Assembly: GCA_947495035.1 (NCBI GenBank)
Contig: CANLXI010000001.1
Coordinates: 496,001-560,000 of the forward strand
DNA from: an uncultured Granulosicoccus sp.
Lineage (GTDB): Bacteria > Pseudomonadota > Gammaproteobacteria > Granulosicoccales > Granulosicoccaceae
Length of the DNA: 64,000 bases
Reading direction: 5' to 3'
Part shown: piece by piece, positions 21,641-44,130 of the stretch
Layout: each line of letters starts with the position of its first letter
Position numbering within the stretch: position 1 is the first letter of the stretch
Made by a program: the position numbers and the translations under genes
The notes under the pieces: generated by a model
What the model was told of the DNA's origin: nothing
Database searches by the model: none
The model's input: the letters and a program-made list of their open reading frames with translations, nothing else

Positions 21641-21667
21641 TCAGTCGGTAGTAAGGTAGTACCTTCC

Positions 21668-21701
21668 GGAAAGGCTCGCTCAGGCGGGCCTTTCCTGTTT
21701 T
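21668..21701 (+). terminator. Intrinsic terminator after rpsJ
   Basis: A 12-bp stem (21668-21679 with 21684-21695, one G-T pair) closes a TCAG tetraloop and is followed by TGTTTTC. It ends str-rpsJ transcription before cobD. Confidence 0.85.
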
Positions 21702-21739
21702 CGTGGCTCCGGAATGATCTGATCAGGGAAAGCTGACCG

Positions 21740-22681
21740 ATGTTGATGCTGGCAGCATTGCTGCTCGAGTTGCTGCTGGGCTGGCCACGCTGGCTGTTTG
21801 CTCGTGTTCGTCACCCGGTCGTCTGGTTGGGGGCACTGATCAGCTTGCTGGAGCAACGCTTCAACAAGCCTTCAGCCAGCGATCGCCAACGCTACATTGC
21901 CGGCGCCCTGGGTTCGTTGCTGCTCATCGGGCTCAGTGCTGCAGTTGCCGGCTTGCTGGTTCGCCTGTTGCCGGACAATCCGTTCGGTTTTCTGCTGGAG
22001 GCCATGCTGGCTTCCAGTCTGCTGGCGGCAAGGAGTCTGTACCAGCATGTCGCGGCAGTATTGGCGCCCTTGCGTTGCCAGGATGTACCGGCAGCCCGGC
22101 AGGCCGTATCGATGATCGTTGGCCGGGATACACGAGAGCTGGAAGAATCCGGCATCTGCTCGGCAGCATTGGAGAGTCTGGCCGAGAATGCCTCGGATGG
22201 GGTCATTGCCCCGCTATTCTGGGGCGTTCTGTTGGGCTTGCCGGGAATGGCTGCCTACAAGGCCATCAACACCCTCGACTCGATGATCGGGCACAGGAGT
22301 GAGCAATACAAGGATTACGGCAGATTTGCGGCACGCCTGGACGACGTGGCCAATTTTCTGCCTGCCAGAGTCTGCGCGGCTCTTTTCTGGCTGGCCGCTG
22401 CCGGTCGCATTTCGTTTGCCGCCGTTGCCCGACAGGCCGATCACCACCGGTCACCCAACGCCGGCTGGCCGGAATCGGCCATGGCATTTGCGCTGGATGT
22501 GCGTCTGTCCGGTCCGCGTGTCTATCAACACACGATCAGTGACGAGCCGTGGTTGAATCCGACGGGTGCGGCACCTGGAGTGTCTGCGTTGCAGCAGGGG
22601 CTGCGACTGTATGCGACGGCGGTGATGCTGAGCGCGGCATTGCTGCTTGCCGCCCTGTTGGGGATGATGCTGCTGCGTTGA
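21740..22681 (+). CDS. cobD: Adenosylcobinamide-phosphate synthase CobD/CbiB
   Basis: A 313-residue integral membrane enzyme that attaches aminopropanol (phosphate) to adenosylcobyric acid, late in B12 synthesis. The diagnostic block SLAENASDGVIAPLFWG, then AAYKAINTLDSMIGHRSEQY and FGRFAARLDD-like YGRFAARLDDVANF, lies around residues 147-210. Several hydrophobic segments flank it. It starts 99 bp after rpsJ, immediately past the terminator, and precedes the cobalamin riboswitch, so it is transcribed separately from the downstream operon. Confidence 0.95.
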   Translation: MLMLAALLLELLLGWPRWLFARVRHPVVWLGALISLLEQRFNKPSASDRQRYIAGALGSLLLIGLSAAVAGLLVRLLPDNPFGFLLEAMLASSLLAARSLYQHVAAVLAPLRCQDVPAARQAVSMIVGRDTRELEESGICSAALESLAENASDGVIAPLFWGVLLGLPGMAAYKAINTLDSMIGHRSEQYKDYGRFAARLDDVANFLPARVCAALFWLAAAGRISFAAVARQADHHRSPNAGWPESAMAFALDVRLSGPRVYQHTISDEPWLNPTGAAPGVSALQQGLRLYATAVMLSAALLLAALLGMMLLR

Positions 22682-22814
22682 TGTTGCTTGCCATCATGCC
22701 GCAGTGACCGATGCGTCTGCGTATGGGTGTATCTCTGCATCGACCTGCGCTGCGCTGCTCTGCGTCGCTCGAGGCAATCGAACATTGACGTACCTGCACT
22801 GAAATGCAACCATA

Positions 22815-23020
22815 TCGGTGTTCGGGTTCTCTGGCGGAGTGTTCCTTGCCAGGGTGAAAAGGGAAGTCCGGTGACAATCGTTCGCGAGAATCGATTCATT
22901 CCGGCGCAGCCCCCGCTGCTGTAAGCCAGACGGTTACGTCTCATGCCACTGAGGTTCGCGATAGCGACTTGACTCGGGAAGGTGACGCAAACCGGAAGAT
23001 GGTAAGCCAGAAGACCTGCC
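22815..23020 (+). promoter_or_regulatory. Cobalamin (adenosylcobalamin-class) riboswitch
   Basis: The leader has the conserved features in order: GGGAA followed by GGTG (22861-22873), the B12-box-like core GCAGCCCCCGCTGCTGTAA (22906-22924), GCCACTG (22945-22951), then CGGGAAGGTGACG and GTAAGCCAGAAGACCTGCC ending near 23020. It lies about 195 bp upstream of the adenosyltransferase gene and should lower expression of the downstream corrinoid operon when cobalamin is plentiful. The upstream 22682-22814 should hold a promoter; TTGACG at about 22786 is a possible -35. Confidence 0.93.
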
Positions 23021-23215
23021 TGACACTGTGTTTCATCTGGTATCTGCTCCGGGGTGAGAGCATGACCGACGATCCGCTTCAGGCGTCGGGATGGTTGAAT
23101 GATCGATTCTGTTTCAGGCAGCAGCGTTCAACTCTCCAACAACGATATCTGAGCTCTTTGTCCGTCAGTTCGTTCTCTTCCCCATGCAGATCGTTTGCGT
23201 CAGCGGGAGTCGGGA

Positions 23216-23827
23216 ATGGAAGAGCAAGGCAAACAGAAGCATGCGGAACGCATGCAGCGGAAGAAAGCCGTTGTCGATGCCGGGATCGAAAAGGCACAGA
23301 TCGAGCGCGGTATCGTCATTCTGATCACCGGTAATGGCAAGGGCAAGACGACATCCGGGTTCGGCACTCTCTACCGTGCACTGGGACATGGACACCGCTG
23401 TGGAGTCGTGCAGTTCATCAAGGGCACGCAGTCAACCGGCGAGGTGATATTCCTGCAGCAGCGGCTGGGGCTGGACAGTGTGCAATACCACGCCATGGCC
23501 ACAGGCTTTACCTGGAACACACAGAACTGGGATGCGGACAAGGCCGCAGCCGATGAAGCCTGGGCGCATGCGGAGAGGATGCTGCAGGATGACAGCCTGA
23601 ACCTGGTACTGCTCGATGAACTGACGTACATGCTCAAGTACCGTTTTCTGGAAACGGACGCCGTCATCGCTGCCATTAAGGCGCGTCCGGCGCATCAGAC
23701 GGTAGTCGTGACCGGGCGTGCTGCCAAGCCCGAGCTGCATGATGTGGCGGATACGGTCAGCGAGATTGCCGACAGGAAACACGCCTTCAAGGCAGGGGTC
23801 AAGGCACAGGCCGGTATCGATTTCTGA
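23216..23827 (+). CDS. cobO: Cob(I)yrinic acid a,c-diamide adenosyltransferase (CobO/BtuR type)
   Basis: A 203-residue ATP:corrinoid adenosyltransferase. The P-loop GNGKGKTT is at residues 39-46, followed by the family features GHGHRCGVVQFIKG, DELTYML and TGRAAKPELHDVADTVSE. It forms the Co-C bond of adenosylcobalamin. The ATG at 23216 is chosen over an in-frame TTG 21 bp upstream because GGGAG sits about 7 nt before it. First gene behind the riboswitch. The region 23021-23215 has no credible gene. Confidence 0.95.
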   Translation: MEEQGKQKHAERMQRKKAVVDAGIEKAQIERGIVILITGNGKGKTTSGFGTLYRALGHGHRCGVVQFIKGTQSTGEVIFLQQRLGLDSVQYHAMATGFTWNTQNWDADKAAADEAWAHAERMLQDDSLNLVLLDELTYMLKYRFLETDAVIAAIKARPAHQTVVVTGRAAKPELHDVADTVSEIADRKHAFKAGVKAQAGIDF

Positions 23828-23870
23828 CGAGCCGACAGACGTGTCGGAAACAGAGGGAGCGGACCGGCCG

Positions 23871-24905
23871 ATGCCAGGCAGAGGCCTGTCGTTGAGGCAG
23901 GCTTCAGTCTATCTGCCTGTCCTTGCGCAGTCGGGTCGGGGGCGCAGTGGCGGCAATTCTTCCGGGTGCCCTGCTCATTGCCAGTTTGTTGCCGGAGTTG
24001 CATTGTTGTGCATCACTGCCTTTAGCTCGATGGTAGAGGCGGGGAACGATGCCGCTGAAGAGGATTCTTCAGCAGCTGTCCTCAACTCGAACCCGTCGCC
24101 TGCCACTTCCGGCCACGCATTACCGCGCGTCATGTCGACCAATCTGTGCGCCGACATGCTGCTGTTGGGCCTGGCCGATGAGTCACAGATCACGTCGGTG
24201 TCGCAACAGGCTCAGGATCCGAGGCGGTCGTCGTTTTCCGCTGCGGCCTTGCGCTATCCGGCAAACCGCGCCAGTGCCGAAGAAGTCATCATGCAACAGC
24301 CCGACGTGGTGCTGGCGTCACGGCGCTGGCAGGCACAACATCAGTCCGATCTGTTTGCCAGGTTCGGTATCCGCGTTGTGAATGTTCCGTATCCGAATGA
24401 CTGGCCGGGAATCTTCAGCAGTCTTCTGCAGGTGGGGGAGCTGATCGGCCGGCGTGATCGGGCCGAAGAGATATTGCGGCAGACAAGGGCAAGATTGCAG
24501 CGGATCCCGTCACCGCAGTCAGCTCTCAGCGTTCTGTACTTGCGTGGCAATGGCGGAACGGCAGCTGGCGGCACCTATATCGATGCGTTGCTGCAGGGGC
24601 TGAACGTCAGCAACAAGGCGGAAGACTATGGTCTGACGGGGTGGAGCCATGTGTCGCTGGAATCGATACTGCTGTCACCCCCTGATGCCTTTCTTGTCAG
24701 TCAGACGCGACATGATGTCGCACCGGGTGGTTCAGCCGTCACGCGCCACCCTCTGTTACGCCAACTGCTGGAGGATCGCCCGGTTCTCACCCTCAGCAGT
24801 CTGGATAGTGGTTGCAGCAACTGGGGGCAAGTGGACACCGTCGAGCAGCTTGCCGTGCGACTGGAGAGCCGTTCGCAGGCCGTTCCGGCTAGAGGCAGGC
24901 CATGA
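23871..24905 (+). CDS. Cobalamin/iron-siderophore-type periplasmic binding protein (BtuF-like)
   Basis: About 344 residues from the ATG at 23871; the start is uncertain because several in-frame starts exist. A hydrophobic segment (VAGVALLCITAFSSMVEA, about residues 40-57) acts as signal peptide or anchor. After it come RVMSTNLCADMLLLGLADES, PDVVLAS and the C-terminal substrate-binding lobe (ESILLSPPDAFLVSQ), typical of the helical-backbone binding proteins (BtuF/FhuD class). Its gene overlaps the FecCD permease start. Riboswitch control makes a corrinoid substrate likely; iron chelates are the alternative. Confidence 0.8.
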   Translation: MPGRGLSLRQASVYLPVLAQSGRGRSGGNSSGCPAHCQFVAGVALLCITAFSSMVEAGNDAAEEDSSAAVLNSNPSPATSGHALPRVMSTNLCADMLLLGLADESQITSVSQQAQDPRRSSFSAAALRYPANRASAEEVIMQQPDVVLASRRWQAQHQSDLFARFGIRVVNVPYPNDWPGIFSSLLQVGELIGRRDRAEEILRQTRARLQRIPSPQSALSVLYLRGNGGTAAGGTYIDALLQGLNVSNKAEDYGLTGWSHVSLESILLSPPDAFLVSQTRHDVAPGGSAVTRHPLLRQLLEDRPVLTLSSLDSGCSNWGQVDTVEQLAVRLESRSQAVPARGRP

Positions 24906-25945
24906 AGTTGCGCCAGGATCTGTGGCTCAATACCATCCTGCTGCTCAGTCTGGCTGGTCTGATGGTTCTGTCCCTGACTGTCGGTCCTCTGCAACTGTCG
25001 ACGCAGGAGGTGCTGGCAGCGCTGTTCCACGCGGACTCGGCCAGTTCCTTGCCGGAATCCCTGGCCGGCATCGACAGAGCGTCTCGCCTTCATCTGATCG
25101 TGACCGAAATTCGGCTACCGCGGGTTCTGCTGGCCATCATTGTCGGTGCATCCCTGGGTGTCTCGGGTGCTGCCTTGCAGGGTCTGCTGCGCAACCCTCT
25201 GGCTGAACCGGGTCTGCTTGGTGTCAGTGCCAGTGCCAGTCTGGGAGCGGTGCTGTGCCTGTATTTCGGTCTGGCCGGTATCAGCGCCTGGTTGCTGCCG
25301 CTGTCGGCGATGGCCTGTGCTGCCCTGTCGACACTGATACTGGCCCTGTTCGCCCGGCGGGCGGTCGGTAACCTGACCCTGATTCTGGCCGGTATCGGCC
25401 TGTCCTCACTGGCTGCGGCCCTGATCTCCCTGGCCATCAATCTGGCGCCGACTCCGGCTGATGTACAGGATATCGTGCTGTGGCTGATGGGCTCCATAGC
25501 CGATCGCAGCTTTGATGACATACGCCTGTGCCTGCCGTTCGTTCTGGCGGGTACCGGTCTGCTGTTCTCCTGCGGCAGGGAGCTGGATGCCTTGACGCTT
25601 GGCGAGGAGGAGGCGTGCAGTCTGGGCGTCAGCCCATCTCGGCTTCGCCTGAAGGTCATCATCGGGACAGCCTTGTGTGTGGGAGCCAGTGTTGCAGTTG
25701 CGGGTGCCATCGGATTCATTGGCCTGGTGGTTCCCCACATGTTGCGTCGCGCCACGGGCTATCATCCGGCTCGGCTGTTGCCGGCCAGCGCTCTGGGTGG
25801 TGCATTGCTGTTGCTGTCTGCCGATATTGTTCTGCGCCTGGTCAGTCAGGACTTCGAACTGATGCTCGGTGTGGTGACCGCACTGATCGGGGCACCCTTT
25901 TTCCTGTTGCTTGTCATGCGCAGCCAGACGGAGATGCTGCGATGA
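24902..25945 (+). CDS. btuC: FecCD-family ABC permease (BtuC-like)
   Basis: A 347-residue polytopic inner-membrane permease of the BtuC/FecCD family. Hallmarks are GASLGVSGAALQGLLRNPLAEPGLLGVSAS (written here as GASLGVSGAALQ and NPLAEPGLLGVS), LMGSIADRSF and GAIGFIGLVVPHMLR. It forms the translocation pathway with the BtuD-like ATPase. Translation is coupled at both ends by ATGA overlaps. The specificity call rests on riboswitch context. Confidence 0.88.
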   Translation: MKLRQDLWLNTILLLSLAGLMVLSLTVGPLQLSTQEVLAALFHADSASSLPESLAGIDRASRLHLIVTEIRLPRVLLAIIVGASLGVSGAALQGLLRNPLAEPGLLGVSASASLGAVLCLYFGLAGISAWLLPLSAMACAALSTLILALFARRAVGNLTLILAGIGLSSLAAALISLAINLAPTPADVQDIVLWLMGSIADRSFDDIRLCLPFVLAGTGLLFSCGRELDALTLGEEEACSLGVSPSRLRLKVIIGTALCVGASVAVAGAIGFIGLVVPHMLRRATGYHPARLLPASALGGALLLLSADIVLRLVSQDFELMLGVVTALIGAPFFLLLVMRSQTEMLR

Positions 25946-26820
25946 TTGATCTTGACCTGCAGAACATGACGGTGCAACGCAATGGGCGCTGTCTGGTGAA
26001 TGACGTCAGTCTGCTGATCCCCGGTGGCTCCCTGTGTGGATTGACAGGACCCAACGGTGCCGGCAAGAGCAGCCTGTTGCGAGCAGTGGCTCAGCTGCTG
26101 CCCCATACCGGGCATTGCCGGCTGGGGGCGCAGTGGCTGGAGCAGAGCTCTGCAGACTGGCGTGCCCGAAGCCTGGCCTATCTGGCGCAGACCGGAGAGC
26201 TTGCCTGGCCCATGGCTGTCAGGGACTTCGTCTCCCTGGGTCGCCTGCCGCATCGACGACGCGGTGTGTTGCTCAGGCGACAGGCGGTCGATGACAAGTC
26301 GGGTTCGAGTCAAGTTCGAACAGACACGGAGGCGGTTGCGCTGGCGCTGGACCAAACCGGTCTCACAGAGCTGGCCACACGACCGCTGAATCAGCTTTCC
26401 GGTGGCGAACTGGCACGAGTGCGGCTGGCACGTGCACTGGCAGTGGATGCCGATGTCTTGCTGGCGGATGAGCCCTGCGCTTCGCTTGATCCCCATCATC
26501 AGCTCAAGGTGATGGAGTTGTTGCACGCGCAGAGTCGTCGCGGGCGGGTCGTGCTGGTTGTATTGCACGACCTGACCCTGGCCAGCCGATTCTGCGATCA
26601 GTTGCTGCTGCTGCATGAAGGGGTCGAAGTGGCCAGTGGGGAGCCACGTCGCGTGCTGACCCCTGACAATCTGCAAAGCGTCTATCAGTTGCAGGCCATC
26701 CACGGCGAGTTTCGCAATCAGTCCTATATCGTGCCTTGGCAAAGCTCTCATGCGGCGCCGCATGCTCATTCCATGAACCAGTCAGGTTGCGGCCTGCAAG
26801 AAGAGGTTTCCGTTCGATGA
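25942..26820 (+). CDS. btuD: ABC transporter ATP-binding protein (BtuD-like)
   Basis: A 292-residue ATPase starting at 25942 within the btuC stop. Walker A GPNGAGKSS (about 36-44), signature [15 protein letters not shown], Walker B VLLADEPCASLD and the switch His in VLHDLT are intact. It has a basic insertion (RRRGVLLRRQAVDDKS) before the signature and a His-containing C-terminal tail (SSHAAPHAHSMNQ). Energises the BtuC/BtuF-like importer. Confidence 0.9.
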   Translation: MIDLDLQNMTVQRNGRCLVNDVSLLIPGGSLCGLTGPNGAGKSSLLRAVAQLLPHTGHCRLGAQWLEQSSADWRARSLAYLAQTGELAWPMAVRDFVSLGRLPHRRRGVLLRRQAVDDKSGSSQVRTDTEAVALALDQTGLTELATRPLNQLSGGELARVRLARALAVDADVLLADEPCASLDPHHQLKVMELLHAQSRRGRVVLVVLHDLTLASRFCDQLLLLHEGVEVASGEPRRVLTPDNLQSVYQLQAIHGEFRNQSYIVPWQSSHAAPHAHSMNQSGCGLQEEVSVR

Positions 26821-27260
26821 TAACCGTCGTTGTGTGTACGACCTGCGGGCAGCAGGAGGACAGTGTCGATGGCCTGCGTCCGGGTGAACACTTTGCCAAT
26901 CGCGTCGAAGAGGCATTGAAACAACATGCCCTTGCCGATGTCGGCGCACCGGTCGTGCAGTTGCAACGCACACGCTGCCTGATGTCATGCAAGCGCTCCT
27001 GTTCGGCAGCCCTGCACCAGAGTGGGAAATACAGCTACGTGTTCGGTGAGTTCAGTCCCGATGTCGACAGTGCCGAGGCCCTGCTGGATTTCACAGCCGG
27101 GTATCGGGTATCGGAAACGGGACAAGTGCCATTCAAGCAGTGGCCGCAGGGGATCAAGGGGCATTTCGTTGCACGTATACCACCCTTGCAGTTCTCCGAG
27201 GTGGCAGATCGCAGGGAATCATCAGACACCAATGACAACACCGAGGTATCCCATGGCTGA
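26817..27260 (+). CDS. DUF1636 metal-binding protein
   Basis: A 147-residue small protein starting MITVVVCTTCGQQED, with Cys at VCTTCG and a second cluster RTRCLMSCKRSCS, followed by YSYVFGEFSP. This matches the DUF1636 family, a thioredoxin-like fold with cysteines suited to an Fe-S cluster or metal. Members often sit beside cobW/cobN, but no biochemical role is established to my knowledge. Its start overlaps btuD by 4 nt and its end overlaps cobW by 8 nt. Confidence 0.8.
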   Translation: MITVVVCTTCGQQEDSVDGLRPGEHFANRVEEALKQHALADVGAPVVQLQRTRCLMSCKRSCSAALHQSGKYSYVFGEFSPDVDSAEALLDFTAGYRVSETGQVPFKQWPQGIKGHFVARIPPLQFSEVADRRESSDTNDNTEVSHG

Positions 27261-28386
27261 CGTACGGAAAATTCCTGCCACGATCGTTACCGGTTTTCTG
27301 GGCAGTGGCAAGACCACCCTTGTTCGCAACATGCTCGAATCGGCTGCGGGACTGCGAATTGCGGTGATCGTCAATGAATTCGGCGAACTCGGTATCGACG
27401 GCGACATTCTGGAGCGCTGCAGTCTGGGTTGCGAGGAGGACGTTGCAGGCATGGAGACTTCCGGCAACGTCTACGAGCTGGCCAATGGCTGCCTGTGCTG
27501 CACCGTGCAGGAGGAATTCTACCCGGTCATGCGCCAGTTGCTGGAACGCAGCGATCGGATAGATCATGTCGTGATCGAGACCTCCGGCCTGGCTCTGCCG
27601 AAGCCATTGGTACAGGCATTCAACTGGCCCGAGATACGCAATGCCTTTACCGTTGATGCGGTTGTGACCGTGGTCGACACACCGGCAACGGCTGCGGGTC
27701 AGTTCGCCAGCAATCCACAGGCGGTTCAGCAGCAACGCCTGGCCGATCCGAATCTGGATCATCAGTCGGCTCTGCACGAATTGTTCGAGGATCAGTTGCT
27801 GGCCGCCGATCTGGTGGTCCTCTCCAAGACGGATCTGGTGGGCGAGCCGCAATGCCGGCAGGTCGAGGAGGTGGTGAGGCAGGAGCTGCCGGCACAGGTC
27901 AAGATCATCCGAAGCGAACAAGGCAAGGTGTCCAACAGCCTGTTGCTGGGCCTGGGGAGTGCCAGTGAGGAGACGATCGATCAGCGCAGGGGTCATCACG
28001 AGCACGACGAGGGTCATGAGCATGACCATGATCACGATCAGTTCGATTCCATGGTCGTGACGCTGCCGGTAGTGGATCGCAGTCGTCTGATGGAGGTGCT
28101 GGACAGACTGGTAGAGGAGCACACCCTGTTCCGGATAAAGGGATTCGTGGCAATCGACGGCAAACCGATGAGACTGGTGGTGCAAGGCGTGGGACGGCGC
28201 TTCGACAGTTATTACGATCGTCGCTGGCGCGACGCTGAAACTCCCCATACCCAGCTGGTGCTGATCGGGCAGCAACTCGACGAGAAATTGTTGCAGGATG
28301 CCCTGATGACGGCCAGCGTTCAGGGCAGCGAAGTGTCTGCCGTGGTCAGTAGTGGTGGACATGCCGGACAGGCCGAGCTCATCTGA
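27253..28386 (+). CDS. cobW: CobW-type GTPase metallochaperone
   Basis: A 377-residue COG0523 G3E GTPase. It has GFLGSGKTT (P-loop, about residues 15-23), the metal-binding CXCC motif in NGCLCCTV, SKTDLV, and a His/Asp-rich linker (HHEHDEGHEHDHDHDQ) before the CobW C-terminal domain. In B12 loci it is thought to supply Co2+ to the CobN chelatase. The ATG at 27253 has GAGG 7 nt upstream; an ATG at 27232 is an alternative. It overlaps cobN by one base. Confidence 0.94.
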   Translation: MADVRKIPATIVTGFLGSGKTTLVRNMLESAAGLRIAVIVNEFGELGIDGDILERCSLGCEEDVAGMETSGNVYELANGCLCCTVQEEFYPVMRQLLERSDRIDHVVIETSGLALPKPLVQAFNWPEIRNAFTVDAVVTVVDTPATAAGQFASNPQAVQQQRLADPNLDHQSALHELFEDQLLAADLVVLSKTDLVGEPQCRQVEEVVRQELPAQVKIIRSEQGKVSNSLLLGLGSASEETIDQRRGHHEHDEGHEHDHDHDQFDSMVVTLPVVDRSRLMEVLDRLVEEHTLFRIKGFVAIDGKPMRLVVQGVGRRFDSYYDRRWRDAETPHTQLVLIGQQLDEKLLQDALMTASVQGSEVSAVVSSGGHAGQAELI

Positions 28387-34239: not shown

Positions 34240-34259
34240 CCTTTCAGGAGTCAGCAAAC

Positions 34260-35445: not shown

Positions 35446-35630
35446 GAACGCTGGGTGTGTTCTCAGGGTGTCTGGACGTGAGGCTGCGGCGGCGAATCCT
35501 GAGCGCTCGCATCACCGGATGGACAGTCAGTTCGATCAATCGTTCACCGGGCGGCTGCCGCGGCCGTTGTCGAGTTACGGATGCTATGCTCGTCACCTGT
35601 CTGTCCGGCGAACAATAGCGAGTACGGTTG

Positions 35631-36713
35631 ATGAATACAGAGAAGGCTGAAGGCAATGCACGAGGGCGGGTATTCGATGGACATAACGACATACTCACGC
35701 GATTGATGCAGGCAGGTGGAGCTTCGGCGGCAGAGTTGTTTCTGCAATCCGGTGATTTTCATATAGATCGGCTAAAGGCCAGAGCCGGAAATTTTGGCGG
35801 TGGATTCTTCGCCATGTGGGTGTCCTCGCCGTCCAGTGGTGACTACCAGACCATGATGACGCAGGCCGAGTACGATGTTCCGCTGCCCGAGCTGGTTGAT
35901 CGACGAAGCGCACTGGATGTGGTCATGCGCGAGGCGGCCATTCTGATCAGGTTGCAGGAGATGGGCGTGGCCGAGATCTGCACCACTGTGCCTGCATTGA
36001 AAAAGTGTTTCTCCAGTGATCGGCTGGCGACCATTCTTCACCTGGAAGGGTGCGAAGCCATCGACCCCGAATTCCATGCGCTGGATGTGCTTTACGAGGC
36101 CGGTCTGCGCTCACTGGGGCCGGTGTGGAGTCGTCCGACCATCTTCGGAGAAGGGGTTCCGTTTCGCTTCCCGGCAACGCCCGACATCGGTGCAGGTCTG
36201 ACTGATCTGGGATTGGAGCTGGTACGTCGCTGTAATGAGAAAGGCATCCTGATCGATTTGTCGCACCTCAACCAGAAGGGGTTTGACGACGTTGCCCGCC
36301 ATAGCCGACACCCTCTGGTAGCGACGCATTCCAATGCTCATGCATTGTGCAATCATGCACGTAATCTGACCGATGCGCAGCTGGAGCAGGTCAAGGCAAG
36401 TCGTGGCATGGTCGGTCTCAATTTTGCCTCGGCCTTTCTGCGTAGTGACGGTCGCATGCTGACCGATGTGCCGGTCGAGCAGATGCTGCGACACCTGGAT
36501 TACCTGATTGAGTTTTTGGGCGAGGACAGTGTAGGCTTGGGGTCGGATTTTGATGGTGCCGAGATTCCCGATTTCATTGGCGATGTCAGTGGCCTGCCTC
36601 GATTGGTAGCGGCCATGCAAAGCCATGGCTACGGTGAACAGCTGATCGACAAGCTGTGTCACGGTAACTGGTTTCGGGTACTGGAAGAAACCTGGCACAG
36701 CAACGATTCATGA
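35631..36713 (+). CDS. Membrane-dipeptidase family (M19) peptidase
   Basis: A 360-residue zinc dipeptidase of the renal-dipeptidase family. Zinc ligands are visible as H18-x-D20 (DGHNDIL), the Glu in HLEGCEAI, and His in LSHLNQ and ATHSNAH, followed by GSDFDG. No signal peptide is seen, so it is probably cytosolic. It lies 49 bp before an oligopeptide importer, suggesting that imported dipeptides are split inside the cell. Family members can cleave dipeptides with D-residues at the C-terminus; the substrate here is unknown. Confidence 0.92.
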   Translation: MNTEKAEGNARGRVFDGHNDILTRLMQAGGASAAELFLQSGDFHIDRLKARAGNFGGGFFAMWVSSPSSGDYQTMMTQAEYDVPLPELVDRRSALDVVMREAAILIRLQEMGVAEICTTVPALKKCFSSDRLATILHLEGCEAIDPEFHALDVLYEAGLRSLGPVWSRPTIFGEGVPFRFPATPDIGAGLTDLGLELVRRCNEKGILIDLSHLNQKGFDDVARHSRHPLVATHSNAHALCNHARNLTDAQLEQVKASRGMVGLNFASAFLRSDGRMLTDVPVEQMLRHLDYLIEFLGEDSVGLGSDFDGAEIPDFIGDVSGLPRLVAAMQSHGYGEQLIDKLCHGNWFRVLEETWHSNDS

Positions 36714-36762
36714 CACAGGTCGACCGTCGGTCGACGTTTTCGAACACAGGAGATCATTCAAG

Positions 36763-38388
36763 ATGACAGGAAATTCGAGCCGTTCACTGAAGCGGCGAGT
36801 ATTCTTCAAACGCTCATTGGCCTCCCTGGCATTGGGTGCCGCGATAGGTCTGGGTGGTCTGGCGGAAGCCAGGACACCGGACAACATGCTGGTCATTGCG
36901 CACCGCATCGATGACATCACCACGCTCGACCCGGCTCAGTCCTTCGAATTCGCCGGTAGTGACGTCATCATGAATGTCTACCGCAAGCTGGTCAATTTCG
37001 ACCCGCTGAATCTTGAAGCCGGATTCCAGCCCGATCTTGCCGAGAGCTGGGAGGTATCCGAAGACGGACTGTCGATCACGTTCACCATGCGAGAAGGCGT
37101 GACCTTCCACTCAGGCAATCCGGTCACGGCGGAAGACGCAGCTTTCTCCCTGCAGCGCGCGGTCAAGCTCAACAAGACTCCCTCGTTCATCCTTACGCAA
37201 TTCGGTTTCACTCCCGAGAACGTCGAGGAAACCATCGTGGCCGACGGCAACACGCTGACCATCACCACCGACAAGAAATACGCGACTTCCTTCATACTGA
37301 ACTGTCTGACAGCCACGATCGGCGGTATCGTGGACAAGACGCTGGTCCTGGAAAACGAGCAGGATGGCGATCTGGGAAATGCCTGGCTGGCAACCAATTC
37401 GGCGGGCTCCGGAGCCTACGAGATCGTCAGCTGGAAGCCGTCCGAGTCCTATACCCTGGCTGCCAATCCTGATTTCTATCTGGGTGCGCCAAGCATGAAG
37501 CGCGTTATCGTCCAGCACATTCAGGAGTCGGCCACACAGCGCCTGCTGCTCGAGAAAGGGGACGTTGACATCGCTCGCAATCTGAATCCCGAAGATATCG
37601 CCGGACTGGAAGGGCAGGAGAATCTCGCCGTCGACACGGACCAGAAGGGAAACCTGATGTACGTCTCCTTCAATCAGAAGCACCCGCAACTGTCGAATCC
37701 CAAGGTGGTGGAAGCGCTGAAATACCTGATTGACTACAAGGGCATGGAAGGCAGTTTTCTGAAGGGTCAGTGGCGTGAACACCAGAGTTTTCTGCCGGCA
37801 GGTTATCTGGGCGCCATCGACGACAAGCCGTACAGTTACAACCTCGAGAAAGCGAAGGAGCTGCTGGCAGAGGCAGGTGTCGAGAATCTCGAGTTCGAAG
37901 CAGGTGTCCGCGAAGCGCAGGAACGAATCGAAATCGCCCAGTCATTGCAGAACACCTTTGCGCAGGCCGGTGTCACGATGAACATCACGATCGGTACGGG
38001 CAAGCAGATTCTGACCCGTTATCGGGCGCGCGAACTGGACATGTATCTGGGTGCCTGGGGACCGGACTATCCCGATCCACAGACCAATGCGGGTACGTTC
38101 GCGTTCAATCCCGACAACTCCGATGAAGCCCAGGCCACCGGTCTGCTGGCCTATCGAAATGCCTGGGATCCGGGCCCGCTGACGGCAGCTGTTGAAGCCG
38201 CTGTCATCGAGGGTGATACCGACAAGCGTCGCGAGATGTATGAACAGATGCAGCGTGACTTTCAGGCGGTGGCACCCTTCGGCATCATGTTCCAGAAAAC
38301 GGAACAGACTGCACGGCAGGCCTCCGTCAAGGATTTCACCATCGGTGGGGCTGTGACGGCCACGGCGTACTGGCCGGTCACCAAGTAA
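36763..38388 (+). CDS. Family 5 peptide-binding protein of ABC importer
   Basis: A 541-residue extracytoplasmic solute-binding protein (DppA/OppA class). The N-terminus has a twin-arginine-like signal, KRRVFFK, then a hydrophobic stretch ending near GLAEA. The mature domain has TLDPAQSFEFAGSDV and QPDLAESWEVSEDGLSITF, typical of the family. It precedes two permease and two ATPase genes in the same direction and follows the M19 dipeptidase. Confidence 0.93.
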   Translation: MTGNSSRSLKRRVFFKRSLASLALGAAIGLGGLAEARTPDNMLVIAHRIDDITTLDPAQSFEFAGSDVIMNVYRKLVNFDPLNLEAGFQPDLAESWEVSEDGLSITFTMREGVTFHSGNPVTAEDAAFSLQRAVKLNKTPSFILTQFGFTPENVEETIVADGNTLTITTDKKYATSFILNCLTATIGGIVDKTLVLENEQDGDLGNAWLATNSAGSGAYEIVSWKPSESYTLAANPDFYLGAPSMKRVIVQHIQESATQRLLLEKGDVDIARNLNPEDIAGLEGQENLAVDTDQKGNLMYVSFNQKHPQLSNPKVVEALKYLIDYKGMEGSFLKGQWREHQSFLPAGYLGAIDDKPYSYNLEKAKELLAEAGVENLEFEAGVREAQERIEIAQSLQNTFAQAGVTMNITIGTGKQILTRYRARELDMYLGAWGPDYPDPQTNAGTFAFNPDNSDEAQATGLLAYRNAWDPGPLTAAVEAAVIEGDTDKRREMYEQMQRDFQAVAPFGIMFQKTEQTARQASVKDFTIGGAVTATAYWPVTK

Positions 38389-38446
38389 TATTGCTTATGT
38401 GGATCAACCGCAGGTTGTCGCATCGCGCGACGAGGACAACGCGCCG

Positions 38447-39535
38447 ATGAGTCAACCGGCGGCCGATCCATCGGCAACGCTGGCACATCGTCCACCACGT
38501 TCCCTGTGGTGGGCGAAGGCCGGCATCAGTGTGCTGCGCACACTGGGCATGATCGTCGTGACCATGCTGGGCCTGCTGTTCGTCACCTTCATCATCGGCC
38601 GAGTGATGCCCATCGATCCGGTCATCTCGGTTGTGGGGGAGCGGGCCAGCAAGGAGGTATACGATGCCGCCTTCATCAGCATGGGCCTGGACAAGCCGCT
38701 GCTGGTTCAGTTTCTGGTCTATCTCGGCGATGTCATTCAGGGGGATTTCGGGCAATCGCTGCTCAACTCGCGACCCGTCATCGACGATATCAAGCGCGTC
38801 TTCCCGGCCACGCTGGAGCTGGCCACGCTGGGCACTCTGGTTGGCGTGTTCATCGGCGTGCCGCTGGGTGTGATCAGTGCGGTCAAGCGCGATTCCTGGA
38901 TCGATCAGATCACTCGGGTCATTGCTCTCGTCGGCTATTCGATGCCCATCTTCTGGCTCGGACTGGTCGGTTTGCTGGTGTTCTATGGCGTGCTGGGCTG
39001 GGTGGGTGGTCCGGGCAGGGTAGGCATCTTCTACGTGGATGTCGTGCCGGTGGTGACCGGCATGATTCTGGTGGACAGTGCTCTGGATGGCCAATGGGAC
39101 GTGTTTCGCGATGCGCTGAGCCATATCGTCCTGCCAGCCGGAATTCTGGGATATTACAGCCTTGCCTACATCAGTCGCATGACGCGTTCGTTCATGCTGG
39201 AACAGCTCGGATCCGAGTACATCACCACGGCGCGCGTCAAGGGACTTTCGGAGTGGACCGTCATCACCCGGCATGCCTTCGGCAACATCAAGGTGCAGCT
39301 GATCACGGTGATAGCCCTGAGTTACGCCAGTCTGCTGGAAGGCTCGGTTCTCACCGAGATCATCTTTGCCTGGCCGGGCATCGGCAGTTACATCACGACA
39401 GCACTGTTGTCAGCTGACATGAACGCGGTTCTGGGCGGCACGGTCGTCATCGGTCTGGTCTTCGTCTGTCTCAATGTCTTTTCCGATTTGCTGTATGCCT
39501 TCTTTGATCCTCGGGCCCGGGACAATGCCTCGTGA
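38447..39535 (+). CDS. Peptide ABC transporter permease (DppB/OppB-like)
   Basis: A 362-residue inner-membrane permease. The ATG at 38447 has GAGGA about 10 nt upstream; an upstream GTG at 38399 lacks any ribosome site. It has an N-terminal cytosolic stretch of about 20 residues, then TM segments, GDFGQSLLNSRPV, and the EAA loop region SEYITTARVKGLSEWTVITRH that contacts the ATPase. It overlaps the next gene by GTGA. Confidence 0.93.
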   Translation: MSQPAADPSATLAHRPPRSLWWAKAGISVLRTLGMIVVTMLGLLFVTFIIGRVMPIDPVISVVGERASKEVYDAAFISMGLDKPLLVQFLVYLGDVIQGDFGQSLLNSRPVIDDIKRVFPATLELATLGTLVGVFIGVPLGVISAVKRDSWIDQITRVIALVGYSMPIFWLGLVGLLVFYGVLGWVGGPGRVGIFYVDVVPVVTGMILVDSALDGQWDVFRDALSHIVLPAGILGYYSLAYISRMTRSFMLEQLGSEYITTARVKGLSEWTVITRHAFGNIKVQLITVIALSYASLLEGSVLTEIIFAWPGIGSYITTALLSADMNAVLGGTVVIGLVFVCLNVFSDLLYAFFDPRARDNAS

Positions 39536-40440
39536 GTAGTCTCAGAACGTGGCTCAACAGCGAAAGCCCCGAGTCGAGAATGCAGGCTCGGGCAGCAGCC
39601 ATCTACCATGGCTGGCTGGAGTTTCGTACCAACCGATTGGCGCTGCTGGGCCTGTGGATTCTGATTCTTCTGGTACTCATTGCCATCTTCGCGCCGTGGC
39701 TCAGCCCGCATGACCCCTTCGAACAGAATCTTGCCAATCGCTTGCTGCCGCTGGGCACCGAGGGTCATCTGCTGGGCACCGATTCACTGGGTCGGGATAT
39801 TCTCAGCCGCCTGATTCATGGTTCACGCATCACGCTGTACATCGTGGGACTGGTGGCCTTGATCGCGCCGGTGCTGGGTCTGTTCATCGGTACCGTGGCC
39901 GGTTATCTCGGTGGATGGACAGACACCGTGCTGATGCGCTTCACCGATATCTTTCTGGCCTTTCCCAGACTGGTTCTGGCGCTGGCATTCGTGGCGGCTC
40001 TGGGTGCTGGTATCGAAAATGCCGTACTCGCCATCGCACTGACTGCCTGGCCACCTTATGCACGCATTGCGCGTGCCGAGACATTGAGCATTCGACGCTC
40101 CGACTACATCAGCGCAGTGAAACTGCAAGGCGCGGGCGCCTTGCGGATCATCACCCGACATATCTGGCCGCTGTGCATTGCATCGCTGGTGGTACGGATC
40201 ACACTGGACATGGCGGGCATCATTCTGGCAGCAGCCGGTCTCGGATTTCTTGGACTGGGCGCTCGCCCCCCATCACCGGAGTGGGGCGCCATGATCGCCG
40301 AGGGCCGACGCTTCATACTCGACTACTGGTGGGTGGCCACGATCCCCGGCATTGCCATCTTCATCGTCAGTCTGGCGTTCAATCTGCTGGGCGACGGCTT
40401 GCGTGATCTGCTGGATCCCAAGAGTGGTGGTAGCTCATGA
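39532..40440 (+). CDS. Peptide ABC transporter permease (DppC/OppC-like)
   Basis: A 302-residue second permease starting at GTG inside the previous stop. It has FRTNRLALLGLWILILLVLI, HLLGTDSLGRDILSRLIHGSR and the EAA-type RRSDYISAVKLQGAGALRI, all typical of DppC. Five to six TM segments. Confidence 0.94.
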   Translation: MSSLRTWLNSESPESRMQARAAAIYHGWLEFRTNRLALLGLWILILLVLIAIFAPWLSPHDPFEQNLANRLLPLGTEGHLLGTDSLGRDILSRLIHGSRITLYIVGLVALIAPVLGLFIGTVAGYLGGWTDTVLMRFTDIFLAFPRLVLALAFVAALGAGIENAVLAIALTAWPPYARIARAETLSIRRSDYISAVKLQGAGALRIITRHIWPLCIASLVVRITLDMAGIILAAAGLGFLGLGARPPSPEWGAMIAEGRRFILDYWWVATIPGIAIFIVSLAFNLLGDGLRDLLDPKSGGSS

Positions 40441-41288
40441 ATCTGCTGGAAGTGGAAGATCTGAAGGTCTCATTCCCGACGCGGACCGGCGTGTTCGAGG
40501 CCGTCCGGGGCGTGTCGTTCTCGCTGGGACAGGAACGGCTCGGCATTGTAGGTGAGTCCGGTTCCGGAAAGTCCCTGACCGGACGCGCCATCCTGCGCCT
40601 CATACGACCACCGGGTCGGGTTTCCGCCGGGCGCATGGCACTGGGTGACGAGGATCTGCTGGCAAAGAGCGACAGGCAGATGCGCGAAGTTCGTGGACAG
40701 CGTATTTCCATGGTGATGCAGGACCCGAAGTTCTCGCTGAACCCGGTCATGACGGTCGGGGAACAGATCATGGAAGCCTATGCGCAGAGCCGCCGTGGCA
40801 ATCGACGGGAGCGTCGGCAGAAGACCATCGAGATGCTGGAAGCGGTTGCGATCCGTGACCCGGAGCGCGTGTTCAAGGCCTATCCGCATGAACTGTCGGG
40901 CGGCATGGGGCAGCGCATCATGATCGCCATGATGCTGATTCCGAACCCGAGCATTCTCATTGCCGATGAGCCGACCTCGGCGCTGGACGTAACCGTGCAG
41001 ATGCAAGTCCTCAACATCATGGACAAGCTCGTATCCGAACGCGGCATGGGTCTGATCTTCATCAGTCATGATCTGAACCTCGTGTCATCGTTTTGCGATC
41101 GTGTTCTGATCATGTATGCCGGACGTGTTGTGGAATCGTGTCGTGCCGACGAGTTGTATCAGGCAAGGCATCCCTACACTCAAGGTCTGCTCGAGTCCAT
41201 GCCCCGGCTGGATGCGCCCAGTGAGCGTTTGTCGGTGCTCGAACGGGATCCGGCGTGGCGAGAGACTGATCCGGATCAAGGCTCATGA
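40437..41288 (+). CDS. Peptide ABC transporter ATPase (DppD/OppD-like)
   Basis: A 283-residue ATPase. It has GESGSGKSLTGRA (Walker A), LSGGMGQRIMIAMML (signature), ILIADEPTSALD (Walker B) and the FISHDLN switch. The C-terminal HPYTQGLLESMP motif is present, but the extension that usually follows is cut to about 30 residues, making it shorter than E. coli DppD (327). ATGA overlaps at both ends. Confidence 0.94.
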   Translation: MNLLEVEDLKVSFPTRTGVFEAVRGVSFSLGQERLGIVGESGSGKSLTGRAILRLIRPPGRVSAGRMALGDEDLLAKSDRQMREVRGQRISMVMQDPKFSLNPVMTVGEQIMEAYAQSRRGNRRERRQKTIEMLEAVAIRDPERVFKAYPHELSGGMGQRIMIAMMLIPNPSILIADEPTSALDVTVQMQVLNIMDKLVSERGMGLIFISHDLNLVSSFCDRVLIMYAGRVVESCRADELYQARHPYTQGLLESMPRLDAPSERLSVLERDPAWRETDPDQGS

Positions 41289-41362
41289 CTGATCTTTCCA
41301 ACCCGGTACCGTCCGGGCTTTCCCTGGAGGCGTTTACCGTGCCGACGGCTTTCATTTCATGA
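41285..41362 (+). CDS. Possible 25-codon ORF bridging the two ATPase genes
   Basis: ATG at 41285 overlaps the dppD-like stop and its TGA (41360-41362) overlaps the dppF-like ATG (41359), so ATGA couplings exist on both sides. The peptide starts MTDLSNPVPSGLS and has no recognisable features. A GGAGG at about 41326-41330 sits 29 nt before the next ATG, too far to serve it. It may be a real coupling peptide or the degraded N-terminus of the next gene. Confidence 0.35.
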   Translation: MTDLSNPVPSGLSLEAFTVPTAFIS

Positions 41363-42135
41363 AGCAGGGTATCGTTGTCGAAGGGCTTGACGTCTGGTTC
41401 GGTGAACATGCCGATCGAGTTCAGGCCGTCAGGGATGTCAGTCTTCAAGTGCCGGCCGGAGAGTCCGTGGGTCTGGTGGGGGAGAGTGGTTCGGGCAAGT
41501 CCACGATTCTGCGAGCATTGACAGGACTGGTCAGCTCCTGGTCCGGTCACATGGAAGTGGATGGCGAAACGCTCGGCAAGCGCCGAACCCGCGCCTTCTA
41601 CGACAAGGTGCAGATGGTCTTTCAGGACCCCTATGCCTCATTGCATCCACGTCATTCCGTTGATCAGGTTCTCAGCGAGACACTGGCCCTGCACAAGCTC
41701 GGTGATGTCGATCGGCGTATCGTCAACCTGCTCGAGGATGTCGGTCTGGGTCGGCAGTTCCGCTTTCGCTACCCGCATCAGCTGTCCGGGGGGCAGCGAC
41801 AACGAGTGGCGATAGCCAGGGCGCTGGCGGCAGAGCCGGCCATTCTGCTGCTGGACGAGCCGACGTCGGCGCTGGATGTCTCGGTACAGGCGGAGATTCT
41901 CAATCTGTTGAGTGATCTGCGAGAGCAGCGTCAACTGACGTATCTGATGGTGTCGCACAATCTGGCCGTCGTGGCCCACCTGTGCGAGTCGATTGCCGTC
42001 ATGCAGAACGGGCGTCTGGTGGAAAACCTGAGTGTGCAGGATCTGCGTGCGATGCGGGCCAGCGAGCCGTATACGCAGCAACTGCTGAAGAGTTCACTGG
42101 GCTATGTCCGTTCAGACACCCCGGCTGACGACTGA
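41359..42135 (+). CDS. Peptide ABC transporter ATPase (DppF/OppF-like)
   Basis: A 258-residue ATPase. It has GESGSGKSTILRA (Walker A), LSGGQRQRVAIARAL (signature), ILLLDEPTSALD (Walker B) and MVSHNL. It ends soon after SEPYTQQLLKSSLG, so the usual C-terminal extension of DppF (about 330 residues in E. coli) is missing. The N-terminus begins directly at the first beta strand, and no Shine-Dalgarno lies near the ATG, so translation probably depends on coupling. Confidence 0.92.
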   Translation: MKQGIVVEGLDVWFGEHADRVQAVRDVSLQVPAGESVGLVGESGSGKSTILRALTGLVSSWSGHMEVDGETLGKRRTRAFYDKVQMVFQDPYASLHPRHSVDQVLSETLALHKLGDVDRRIVNLLEDVGLGRQFRFRYPHQLSGGQRQRVAIARALAAEPAILLLDEPTSALDVSVQAEILNLLSDLREQRQLTYLMVSHNLAVVAHLCESIAVMQNGRLVENLSVQDLRAMRASEPYTQQLLKSSLGYVRSDTPADD

Positions 42136-42146
42136 GAGCCGATGTC

Positions 42147-42171
42147 AGCCGGGTTGCTGTCAAGCCCGGCT
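42147..42171. terminator. Terminator hairpin between convergent genes
   Basis: AGCCGGG (42147-42153) pairs with CCCGGCT (42165-42171), with further TTG/CAA pairing inside. It sits in the 39-bp gap between the importer operon and the DUF1499 gene and may serve both. No strong U-tract. Confidence 0.55.
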
Positions 42172-42174
42172 AGT

Positions 42175-42906
42175 TCAGAATGCCTCGATGAAGGCTCTGA
42201 TACGCGCTGCATTGACGCCTCTGTCACTGCGCCCGATGCGTGACACGCTGCGTATGTCGACCCGGCTTGCGCCATCTTCAGGTGTCACGACGACAACGAC
42301 ATCGTCGGCGAATTGGAATACCGGGGTGCGTGCGGTCGCTTCGAATCGCAGATTGTCGTCATCCTGTGACACGATTTCCCATTTCATGGAGTGCGCAACG
42401 TCAAGCGCTCGGGCGAACGCGGCCTCGGCGGTTGATTGCGATTGTATGGGGGCGATATCCGGATAGGCGGATTGCTGTTGTGCTGCTATCTCCGGTCCGC
42501 CATGGACAAGGGTGTTGCGCGCGCCTTCTCGGCTGTCATCCAGTACCAGGAACCGGGGCGGGTTGTCGGTATCGGTCGTGATGTCATGGATGGGAGGTAC
42601 AGGCGCCGGTGGTGAGATGCGGTCTTTCAACGTCGGGTAGAGCAAGGCCAGACCGAGAATGCACGCCAGACCGGTCTTGACGATACCCGCAGAGTTTCGT
42701 TTTACCAGCATGAAGAGCAGGCCGGCCAGGCTCAGTCCGCTGACTGCATAGGCCAGCGGAGCGGCATACTCGCGGTAGTAGCCGAAGCCGACAATGGGCT
42801 CCCAGAGACCCAGACGTGCTCCGAACATCATGATGGCGGTAGCCAGTGCGGCACATACGGCAATTATCAGTAGCAGGGTAGCTGTACGGGAAGATCTGGT
42901 GCTCAT
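42175..42906 (-). CDS. DUF1499 membrane protein
   Basis: 243 residues. Three hydrophobic segments lie near residues 10-28, 48-66 and 74-92, followed by a soluble domain of about 140 residues containing RNTLVHGGPEIAAQQ, DVAHSMKWEIVSQDDDNLRFEA and VDIRSVSRIGRSDRGVNAARI. This last region is the DUF1499 signature; the function is unknown. Its start is preceded immediately by five 11-bp tandem repeats and lacks a strong ribosome site. Confidence 0.85.
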   Translation of the reverse strand: MSTRSSRTATLLLIIAVCAALATAIMMFGARLGLWEPIVGFGYYREYAAPLAYAVSGLSLAGLLFMLVKRNSAGIVKTGLACILGLALLYPTLKDRISPPAPVPPIHDITTDTDNPPRFLVLDDSREGARNTLVHGGPEIAAQQQSAYPDIAPIQSQSTAEAAFARALDVAHSMKWEIVSQDDDNLRFEATARTPVFQFADDVVVVVTPEDGASRVDIRSVSRIGRSDRGVNAARIRAFIEAF

Positions 42907-42918
42907 GGTCTGGTGTCC

Positions 42919-42973
42919 GGGATTGAGTCGGGATTGAGTCGGGATTGAGTCGGGATTGAGTCGGGATTGAGTC
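42919..42973. repeat. Five exact 11-bp tandem repeats
   Basis: GGGATTGAGTC is repeated five times without error from 42919 to 42973, ending 13 bp upstream of the DUF1499 start codon (minus strand). The period is close to one helical turn. Copy-number change would move whatever promoter lies upstream. Confidence 0.95.
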
Positions 42974-43042
42974 GCATTCTGCGACAGATGGATACCGCTG
43001 AGGTTCGACGTTCGGCGGCACAGTCATGATTGTCGGCAGTTG

Positions 43043-43651
43043 TCAGGTGCCGGGTCGAGTGAAAGCCTGACGAGCGCGTTGCACGGTCAGGCGTGCAGAG
43101 CAGCCGCTGACGTGGTCGTTGACCAGCCCCAACGCCTGCATCAGTGCGTACATGTTGGTCGGGCCAACGTAGGTCCAGCCGCGCTTTTTCAAGGCCCCGG
43201 CAAGTGCGCTTGACTCCGGCGTTGTCGGGTTGTCATTCAGCCAGCTGCAAGACATGCTGGCGGGTCGTGTGGCAGGGGCGGGCTCGTATTGCCAGAAGAA
43301 GGCAGCCAGACTGCCGTAGTCACGTTGCAGCTCCAGGGCACGGCGGGCATTGTTGATGGCCGAGCAGATCTTGCGCCGATTGCGAATGATGCCGGCATCC
43401 TGCATCAGTCTGTCGATATCAACGTCATCGAAGTCGGCAACGGCAGGAATATCGAAATCGGCAAAGGCGCGGCGCAGGGCAGCACGGCGATGCAGAATCG
43501 TGCGCCAGCTGAGCCCGGATTGAAATCCTTCAAGGCAGACCTTCTCATAGAAGGTCTGGTCGGAGTCTGTCGGAATGCCCCATTCGGTGTCGTGATAGGC
43601 CTTGTACAGGGCATCATCAGCAGGTATGGGGCAACGGTCGGTCTCGCACAT
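43043..43651 (-). CDS. tag: DNA-3-methyladenine glycosylase I
   Basis: A 202-residue Tag, which removes 3-methyladenine from alkylated DNA. The N-terminal Cys7 and His20 (YHDTEWG) and the C-terminal VNDHVSGC pair provide the zinc-snap residues. LEGFQSGLSWRTIL and QDAGIIRNRRKI, with LKKRGWTYVGPTNMYALMQA, are diagnostic. Monocistronic on the minus strand, upstream of and divergent from rplC. Confidence 0.95.
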   Translation of the reverse strand: MCETDRCPIPADDALYKAYHDTEWGIPTDSDQTFYEKVCLEGFQSGLSWRTILHRRAALRRAFADFDIPAVADFDDVDIDRLMQDAGIIRNRRKICSAINNARRALELQRDYGSLAAFFWQYEPAPATRPASMSCSWLNDNPTTPESSALAGALKKRGWTYVGPTNMYALMQALGLVNDHVSGCSARLTVQRARQAFTRPGT

Positions 43652-43916
43652 GAGCCGATGTCTCTGAAGTGAGCTGATCGAGCAGTGATATCATCCAGTA
43701 TGGCGCATCCGTCAGTGATTGCCGAATTGAAACCTGTGTTCGAATTTCACAAGTTACGTGGTCAAGCTCAAGTTTATCGACTGCATGGCCGAAAGAAGCC
43801 GGTCTGACTGCGGTTTGTCTGGTGTTTTCGCTGTGGTCAGAAGCGCCATGTACGACATTTCGTGACACCCGAATGAACAAAAACCCGTCGAAGGGGTAGC
43901 AATCGCAAGATTTGGG

Positions 43917-43925
43917 TGTTATTAT
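43917..43925 (+). promoter_or_regulatory. Extended -10 promoter for the rplC operon
   Basis: TGTTATTAT (TG at 43917-43918, TATTAT at 43920-43925) is an extended -10 element. The -35 is poor (TAGCAA, 17-nt spacer). Transcription would start near 43932. Confidence 0.5.
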
Positions 43926-43937
43926 GGTGCGCTAACC

Positions 43938-43975
43938 AACCCGGCGTGGATACCCCGTCGGGTTTTGTTTATTTC
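43938..43975 (+). terminator. Early attenuator-like terminator in rplC leader
   Basis: AACCCGGCG (43938-43946) pairs with CGTCGGGTT (43956-43964, one G-T pair) and is followed by TTGTTTATTT. No plus-strand gene precedes it, and it starts within about 10 nt of the predicted transcript start, so it looks like an attenuator. Confidence 0.55.
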
Positions 43976-43992
43976 GGTTTTATTACTTCGTT

Positions 43993-44010
43993 CCGAGCTG
44001 CACTGCTCGG
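43993..44010 (+). other. Perfect leader hairpin before rplC
   Basis: CCGAGC-TGCACT-GCTCGG, a 6-bp perfect stem with a 6-nt loop in the rplC leader. It has no U-tract. It may be part of a ribosomal-protein binding site. Confidence 0.45.
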
Positions 44011-44130
44011 CTGCAAATCAACCTCCGATAAACAGTTCGCCGCCAAGCGTTCTGCACCACATGGGGGGATGGCAAGCGGTCCCACTGTGCGTGCTGTTCT
44101 GGGCGTGATTAGAGTGTGTGGGAGAAAACG

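Follow-up and report, generated by a model that had tools for sequence, protein, structure and literature searches.

The rpsJ–rplC interval of Granulosicoccus

The ribosomal protein genes rpsJ (S10) and rplC (L3) of an uncultured species of the marine genus Granulosicoccus (family Granulosicoccaceae, class Gammaproteobacteria) lie 22,490 bp apart in the 64,000-nucleotide stretch analysed here, hereafter the window (GenBank assembly GCA_947495035.1, contig CANLXI010000001.1, positions 496,001 to 560,000). In Escherichia coli the S10 operon begins with rpsJ. In the window, rpsJ closes a run of str genes and is followed by a terminator-like site, and the remaining S10 operon starts at rplC behind a promoter motif and a leader of its own. 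An earlier note made from the sequence of the window had described the split, the terminator and the separate rplC unit with its leader, and these points stand. The genes in between are called cargo below. By window position, the features of the locus are:

20129–21319, + strand: tuf, upstream neighbour in the str gene run (open reading frame (ORF) call; used as tblastn query)
21326–21640, +: rpsJ (S10), last gene of the str run, 6 bp 3' of tuf
21668–21702, +: terminator-like hairpin behind rpsJ (stem 21668–21695, then T-rich)
21740–22681, +: cobD/cbiB, cargo (PF03186, TIGR00380)
22807–23037, +: cobalamin riboswitch, cargo (RF00174, 100.4 bits against a gathering cut-off of 31.5 bits)
23195–34939, +: cobO, BtuF/C/D-like importer, cobW, cobN, ChlI-like AAA gene, VWA protein gene and an ORF of no known family, cargo (Pfam, NCBIfam)
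34196–34939, +: the ORF without Pfam or NCBIfam match, kept within the cob block of four Granulosicoccus genomes
34972–35445, −: thioredoxin-like protein, cargo (PF13098)
35628–42135, +: M19 dipeptidase and Opp-type peptide importer (binding protein, two permeases, two ATPases), cargo (Pfam/NCBIfam)
42175–42906, −: DUF1499 protein, cargo (PF07386)
43043–43651, −: tag (methyladenine glycosylase), rplC-proximal cargo resident in two Granulosicoccus clades (PF03352)
43920–43933, +: rplC promoter motif, comprising a −10 element (TATTAT), a GC-rich discriminator and the region of the putative transcription start
43932–44130, +: structured rplC leader (5' untranslated region; core model R1 spans 43985–44133)
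43938–43971, +: 5' hairpin of the leader (stem arms 43938–43946 and 43956–43964), then a U-rich run
44131–44784, +: rplC (L3), first gene of the remaining S10 operon, from its ATG (ORF called at 44116–44784)

Pfam and NCBIfam searches confirmed the cargo families CbiB/CobD, CobO, the BtuF/C/D-like importer, CobW, CobN and the ChlI-like and VWA chelatase subunits. The cobalamin, peptide-import, DUF1499 and tag genes of the earlier inventory were all recovered; the thioredoxin-like gene and the ORF of no known family had been missed. The cobaltochelatase partners of CobN, encoded at 32267–34239, are ChlI/VWA-like and resemble TIGR02442 at a score under its cut-off, and CobS and CobT models were absent from the Pfam and NCBIfam matches to these proteins. 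GC content is 0.564–0.618 over the eleven 2-kb steps of the cargo (mean 0.594) and 0.531–0.610 over the remaining 21 steps of the window (mean 0.562; both means calculated by hand), a weak hint from base composition that the cargo may have been transferred. Rfam matches to BASRCII26 and RsmY near 21.5–21.7 kb scored far under gathering and were dismissed. The whole assembly (7.16 Mb, 159 contigs, 99% complete, flagged 6.89% contaminated) holds one match to rpsJ and one to rplC; the second S10 operon for which the earlier note had allowed was thus not found.

Distribution of the split and turnover of the cargo

We compared 27 Granulosicoccus genomes, including that of the window, with one genome per species. 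In 17 genomes the two genes share a contig, and in five they lie on different contigs; three yielded rpsJ only, one rplC only and one neither. The two genes are separated by 1.2–22.6 kb in 16 of the 17 same-contig genomes, the exception being G004. The rpsJ–rplC gaps, in kb, are:

G005 22.6, G012 22.5, G000 22.5, G023 22.0, G001 15.3, G003 8.1
G018 7.8, G022 6.8, G002 6.5, G013 5.9, G021 4.7, G008 2.5
G019 2.5, G006 2.4, G016 2.3, G009 1.2, G004 0.44

The rest of the family was represented by 21 genomes, 16 of them measurable (rplC only in one, neither gene in four). Gaps were 153–192 bp in genus g4 (12 genomes), 188 bp in g6 (one genome) and 0.49–0.73 kb in the sister genera g2 and g3 (three genomes). 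Lengths rise from g4 through the sister genera to Granulosicoccus, a series that would fit a small gap widening later, on a tree whose deep forks are poorly supported. Across the class, 100 of 370 genomes were among the matches listed for both genes, a set skewed to good matches and including one member of the window's family (G031); in all 100 the two genes lie on one contig and strand, 12–317 bp apart (median 70). Among 80 loci from named genomes, rpsJ lies less than 1 kb from rplC in 77, with a maximum of 683 bp; the other three are one Granulosicoccus metagenome-assembled genome (MAG) and two loci that start too near rplC to judge. No gap above 0.74 kb was found among the measurable genomes outside Granulosicoccus. 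This comparison, which the earlier note had proposed as a check, shows the split to be confined to Granulosicoccus within our sample.

The content of the interval changes from clade to clade. A cob block occupies the site in four genomes: G000, G012, G023 and, on two contigs, G024. Cargo order in G012 (865-kb contig) is overall that of the window; the single contig of G023 (7,783,862 bp) has the same overall order minus the thioredoxin and DUF1499 genes and plus an APH-family gene. CobN was matched in 16 of 48 family genomes: besides those with the block at this site, G026 (53% identity) and G031 (67%) gave full-length matches on contigs other than those of rpsJ and rplC, and the other matches were weaker or partial. 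B12 genes have been reported in Granulosicoccus from the kelp microbiome (PMC9238374), in passages that do not mention this locus.

Other clades carry other genes, as judged by Pfam searches run on one member of each genome pair. In G014, where the locus is split over two contigs, rpsJ is immediately followed by nitrate-reductase genes and a transporter (L137, G014:C161), and rplC is preceded by the importer and tag. The cargo of G016 and G006 is limited to M19 and tag, that of G008 and G019 to an HDOD/EAL gene and tag. G001 has M19, carbonic anhydrase, sugar-type ABC genes and tag; G005 and G017 have TRAP-transporter and dehydrogenase genes in common; G022 and G015 carry a tripartite tricarboxylate transporter, and G003 a B12-dependent methionine synthase. 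Tad/Flp pilus genes lie behind rpsJ in G020, where rplC was not found.

Clustering of cargo ORFs of at least 150 amino acids from 22 genomes (40% identity, 70% coverage) gave 101 families, of which only three (tag, M19 and one ABC ATPase) are common to different clade groups. This count reflects eight groups set by us, four of them parts of one clade, and mechanically called ORFs, with the rpsJ-side contig of G014 left out. The tag family occurs in 11 genomes, in clades A and B4. In a tree of the rplC-rplD-rplW-rplB proteins (30 rows; of the 27 inner branches, 17 have strong support and seven are open), the cargo-free G004 is nested between the G005/G017 pair and the G013/G015/G010/G022 group, all of which bear cargo, implying that cargo was gained, lost or replaced repeatedly. 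The single 22.5-kb insertion envisaged in the earlier note gives way to a site with different cargo in different clades.

One explanation for this variability is a mobile element or genomic island whose integrase has since been lost or goes unrecognised, and cargo that varies by clade and is not known to be connected with the ribosome would suit it. We consider it unlikely. Integrase and transposase families were absent from the 19 cargo proteins tested inside the window and the 68 tested outside it, a subset of all cargo ORFs in which 10 of the 87 matched no family and weak matches could be missed at the E cut-offs used (1e-10, 1e-6, 1e-5 or 1e-3 by batch). The window is without tRNA, and the longest direct match between its cargo borders is 8 bp, a length reached in 50 of 100 shuffles. 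The absence of mobile-element genes and tRNA had already been remarked upon in the earlier note. Neither an integrase nor the flanking repeats or tRNA target of an integrative mobile element was thus seen at the window locus.

Many hotspots of horizontal gene transfer lack recognisable mobile elements; incoming genes tend to land at the edges of operons, and homologous recombination in the flanks has been proposed for many such sites (Oliveira et al. 2017, PMC5635113). The rpsJ–rplC site has the pattern by which those hotspots are recognised, namely the same core-gene interval with different accessory genes across related genomes, and like them it shows turnover without mobility genes among the 87 cargo proteins tested. 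It differs from them in that its flanks are two normally adjacent ribosomal operons and in that it was compared between species, not strains.

Age of the proposed transcription boundary

The tuf–rpsJ junction is tight throughout the family, with or without the split. Spacing is 3–29 bp in all 32 family genomes measured (23 from the genus and nine others) and 2–29 bp in 23 of 33 other class genomes fetched, in a survey of 68 stretches that counts three genomes twice. Taken with the named loci considered below, close tuf–rpsJ pairing typifies the family and certain other groups but not the class. In the nine family members outside the genus, whose rpsJ–rplC gaps are 0.15–0.73 kb, rpsJ follows tuf by 8–29 bp, too short a distance to accommodate an E. 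coli-type leader upstream of rpsJ. Such a leader is likewise excluded in the window by the 6 bp between tuf and rpsJ.

The promoter motif of rplC also occurs without cargo. A TANNNT-N6-CT motif with a GC-rich discriminator lies upstream of rplC in 27 of 27 sequences (23 from the genus, four from sister genera), a count made without shuffle control. GC-rich discriminators are typical of stringently controlled promoters. A weight matrix built from the 23 genus sites (match at p ≤0.05 against 200 shuffles each, without multiple-test correction) found the promoter in all six family members tested in which the genes are adjacent (150–190 bp gap). Elsewhere in the class it matched five of 14 gaps of at least 100 bp and one of 17 gaps of 16–99 bp; four of the 41 gaps fetched fell below the length that this test needs. 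The terminator-like site has a narrower distribution. Of 25 Granulosicoccus rpsJ tails, 21 have it, where shuffles would give 1.1; it is absent from all three sister-genus tails and occurs in two of six g4/g6 gaps, once weakly and once within the rplC leader. It therefore appears from these sequences that the rplC promoter is older than the cargo and that the rpsJ terminator arrived with the genus. A scan for a hairpin behind the rplC promoter was suggestive but not clean, with 20 of 23 genus sequences against 6.4 expected (in G002 and G003 it is not the first hairpin behind the promoter), four of four in sister genera against 1.8, and seven of 20 class gaps against 2.0.

Two Woeseiaceae MAGs (L225, L229) have rpsJ–rplC gaps of 670 and 683 bp, and two unplaced gammaproteobacterial MAGs (L212, L158) gaps of 393 and 470 bp, all with the same promoter motif as judged by scores only. 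A leader of ~300 nt lies upstream of rplC in L225 and L212, the two inspected. A GGTCAATCGAAATCGG-like motif is found upstream of rplC in several gammaproteobacteria of other families (such as L105, L118, L121, L123 and L132), often after a GC hairpin and a T-run.

One large insertion might first have split a single S10 operon, the downstream half later evolving its promoter and leader; the leader does vary in length and sequence by clade, as if renewed after an insertion. This order of events is improbable given that family members with adjacent genes already have the promoter motif, in six of six tested, and already have rpsJ directly behind tuf. The same observations do not support the earlier claim that the insertion freed S10 from L4 feedback: with rpsJ tightly behind tuf in all nine family members outside the genus, and the rplC promoter motif in every 150–190 bp gap tested, the transcriptional split seems to have come before the insertion. 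The boundary is apparently older than the insertion because both traits are present in family members without cargo.

The comparative sequence data suggest that the rpsJ–rplC junction is probably an old transcription boundary in the family that became an integrase-free insertion hotspot in Granulosicoccus, probably via homologous recombination. Under this reading, rpsJ would be the last gene of the str unit, whose transcripts would end at the terminator behind it, and a separate transcript, headed by a structured leader, would start at the promoter of rplC. Insertions between the two units would disturb neither and so would be tolerated. Cargo of up to about 22 kb would then be gained, lost and replaced between the rpsJ terminator and the rplC promoter, most likely through homologous recombination in the conserved flanks. 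Two observations weigh against this reading. Among named loci where tuf was found, only seven of 36 have it within 30 bp of rpsJ, and the linkage is thus not general beyond the family. Four of the 25 rpsJ tails, including those of the close relatives G012 and G024, lack a terminator by the rule used.

Uncoupling of S10 (NusE) from the other S10-operon genes may itself have been selected, with the cargo merely spacing the two units, and the separation has been kept in 16 of 17 same-contig genomes despite cargo change. This seems very improbable to us: distance adds little because rpsJ already lies behind tuf and the rplC promoter motif is already present in cargo-free family members, and G004 went back to, or kept, 0.44 kb. 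An assembly or binning artefact, at which the contamination flag and the many relatives' contigs that break close to rpsJ might hint, is scarcely credible and misassembly was rejected, because G012 and the one-contig G023 repeat the same overall order in diverged sequence. Many Granulosicoccus contigs, among them the starts of those of G004, G009, G018 and G021, break ~150–200 bp before rpsJ, inside tuf, perhaps due to duplicate tuf genes.

The rplC leader and known str–S10 arrangements

The leader is 98.0% identical to that of G012 and 99.5% to that of G024; identity to these two is 68.5% and 59.2% over the 150 bp that precede the promoter, and 94.4% and 94.7% over the first 120 codons of rplC, with 85.8% at third positions. 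Leader and rplC identities are 90.5% vs 84.2% in G023 and 88.3% vs 86.9% in G014. In the nearest relatives, the leader is thus better conserved than rplC itself. Four helices of 30 pairs in total were traced in eight sequences; 90.4% of their cells are paired, and in 10 pairs both partners have changed. For the 5' hairpin (helix 1) the values are 94.4% of cells and three pairs. The covariation score exceeds all 500 shuffles and far exceeds slid versions, placing a covarying structure directly upstream of a ribosomal-protein gene in these eight related sequences. RNAalifold predicts two more helices, one covering the Shine-Dalgarno sequence (UCCCAC with GUGGGA) and one the bases that precede the start codon (UCGUU with AACGA); both are invariant and so do not prove structure.

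No Rfam family matches the leader up to E = 1. A covariance model of its core (R1) was found once each in eight of 48 family genomes, always directly before rplC, and two weak matches more were obtained in the fetched loci, before rplC of G019 and G008. Leaders of other clades differ in sequence, and clade-wise alignments, in which the start of G004 was misplaced and seven sequences had no start, gave no structure common to clades. Clade-specific leader sequences fit the published view that ribosomal leaders tend to be narrowly distributed (PMC7247131), in a paper where rplC appears once, under an archaeal leader. Several observations on the leader also weigh against the boundary reading. Its identity in the distant G001, G016 and G006 is 67.5–72.0%, below that of rplC (75.8–79.7%); the covariation comes from eight related sequences, with one helix register picked on the same alignment, and one of five covariation measures (further pair types) is not above shuffles; the folding energy of the whole leader is ordinary (z = −0.82); and the eight genomes found by R1 are those from which it was built, the leaders of other clades not being demonstrably homologous.

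The leader resembles that of the E. coli S10 operon with its L4 feedback (PMC10931766) in being long and structured, in having most S10-operon genes downstream and in its terminator-like hairpin. Unlike the E. coli leader, it precedes rplC and not rpsJ, excludes S10 and has no Rfam match. Speculatively, its 5' hairpin and the Shine-Dalgarno helix could let L4 or L3 tune the rplC unit, and S10 would follow the str unit. The str operon of E. coli is controlled by S7. We consider it possible, though short of likely, that the modelled leader of ~200 nt in the window's clade is a new ribosomal-protein operator that closes over the Shine-Dalgarno and pre-start bases and, besides its terminator-like 5' hairpin, offers a binding site for L4 or L3, the feedback having moved from rpsJ to rplC, with S10 passing to str control and the junction freed as an insertion hotspot.

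The str–S10 region is among the most conserved bacterial gene neighbourhoods, and its splits have been explained by invasion-separation, in which genes invade between the operons and the pair then drifts apart (Brandis 2021, PMC8046335). Two inserts were described there: bfd-bfr, which entered in the ancestor of Enterobacterales, Vibrionales and related orders, and ilv-leu, present in Sporolactobacillaceae (PMC8046335). That paper never names rpsJ in its text and defines operons by E. coli nomenclature (PMC8046335). Its str–S10 break should thus lie before rpsJ. Granulosicoccus is like these cases in that genes invade between str and S10 units. It is unlike them in that rpsJ stays with tuf, 6 bp behind it, leaving no insertion before rpsJ, and in that the break falls behind rpsJ, at a pre-existing promoter and with repeated cargo exchange. 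No report of an rpsJ–rplC split was found in the limited set of literature searched. The break behind rpsJ with repeated cargo turnover is new; str–S10 splits as such were already known.

A genus with a repeatedly refilled rpsJ–rplC junction suggests a route of synteny breakdown in which a promoter is followed by a terminator and then by invasion. Such a genus is also a natural experiment on whether S10 (NusE) depends on the feedback control of the genes with which it once shared an operon, and it yields a new candidate for a ribosomal-protein leader. In cyanobacteria and plastids, rps10 lies behind tufA and apart from rpl3, an arrangement that our literature check did not confirm, and we know of no insertion hotspot there. 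Further downstream, the window carries a match to the alpha-operon ribosome binding site at 54598–54697 (RF00140, 39.4 bits), and classical alpha-operon control may thus be kept.

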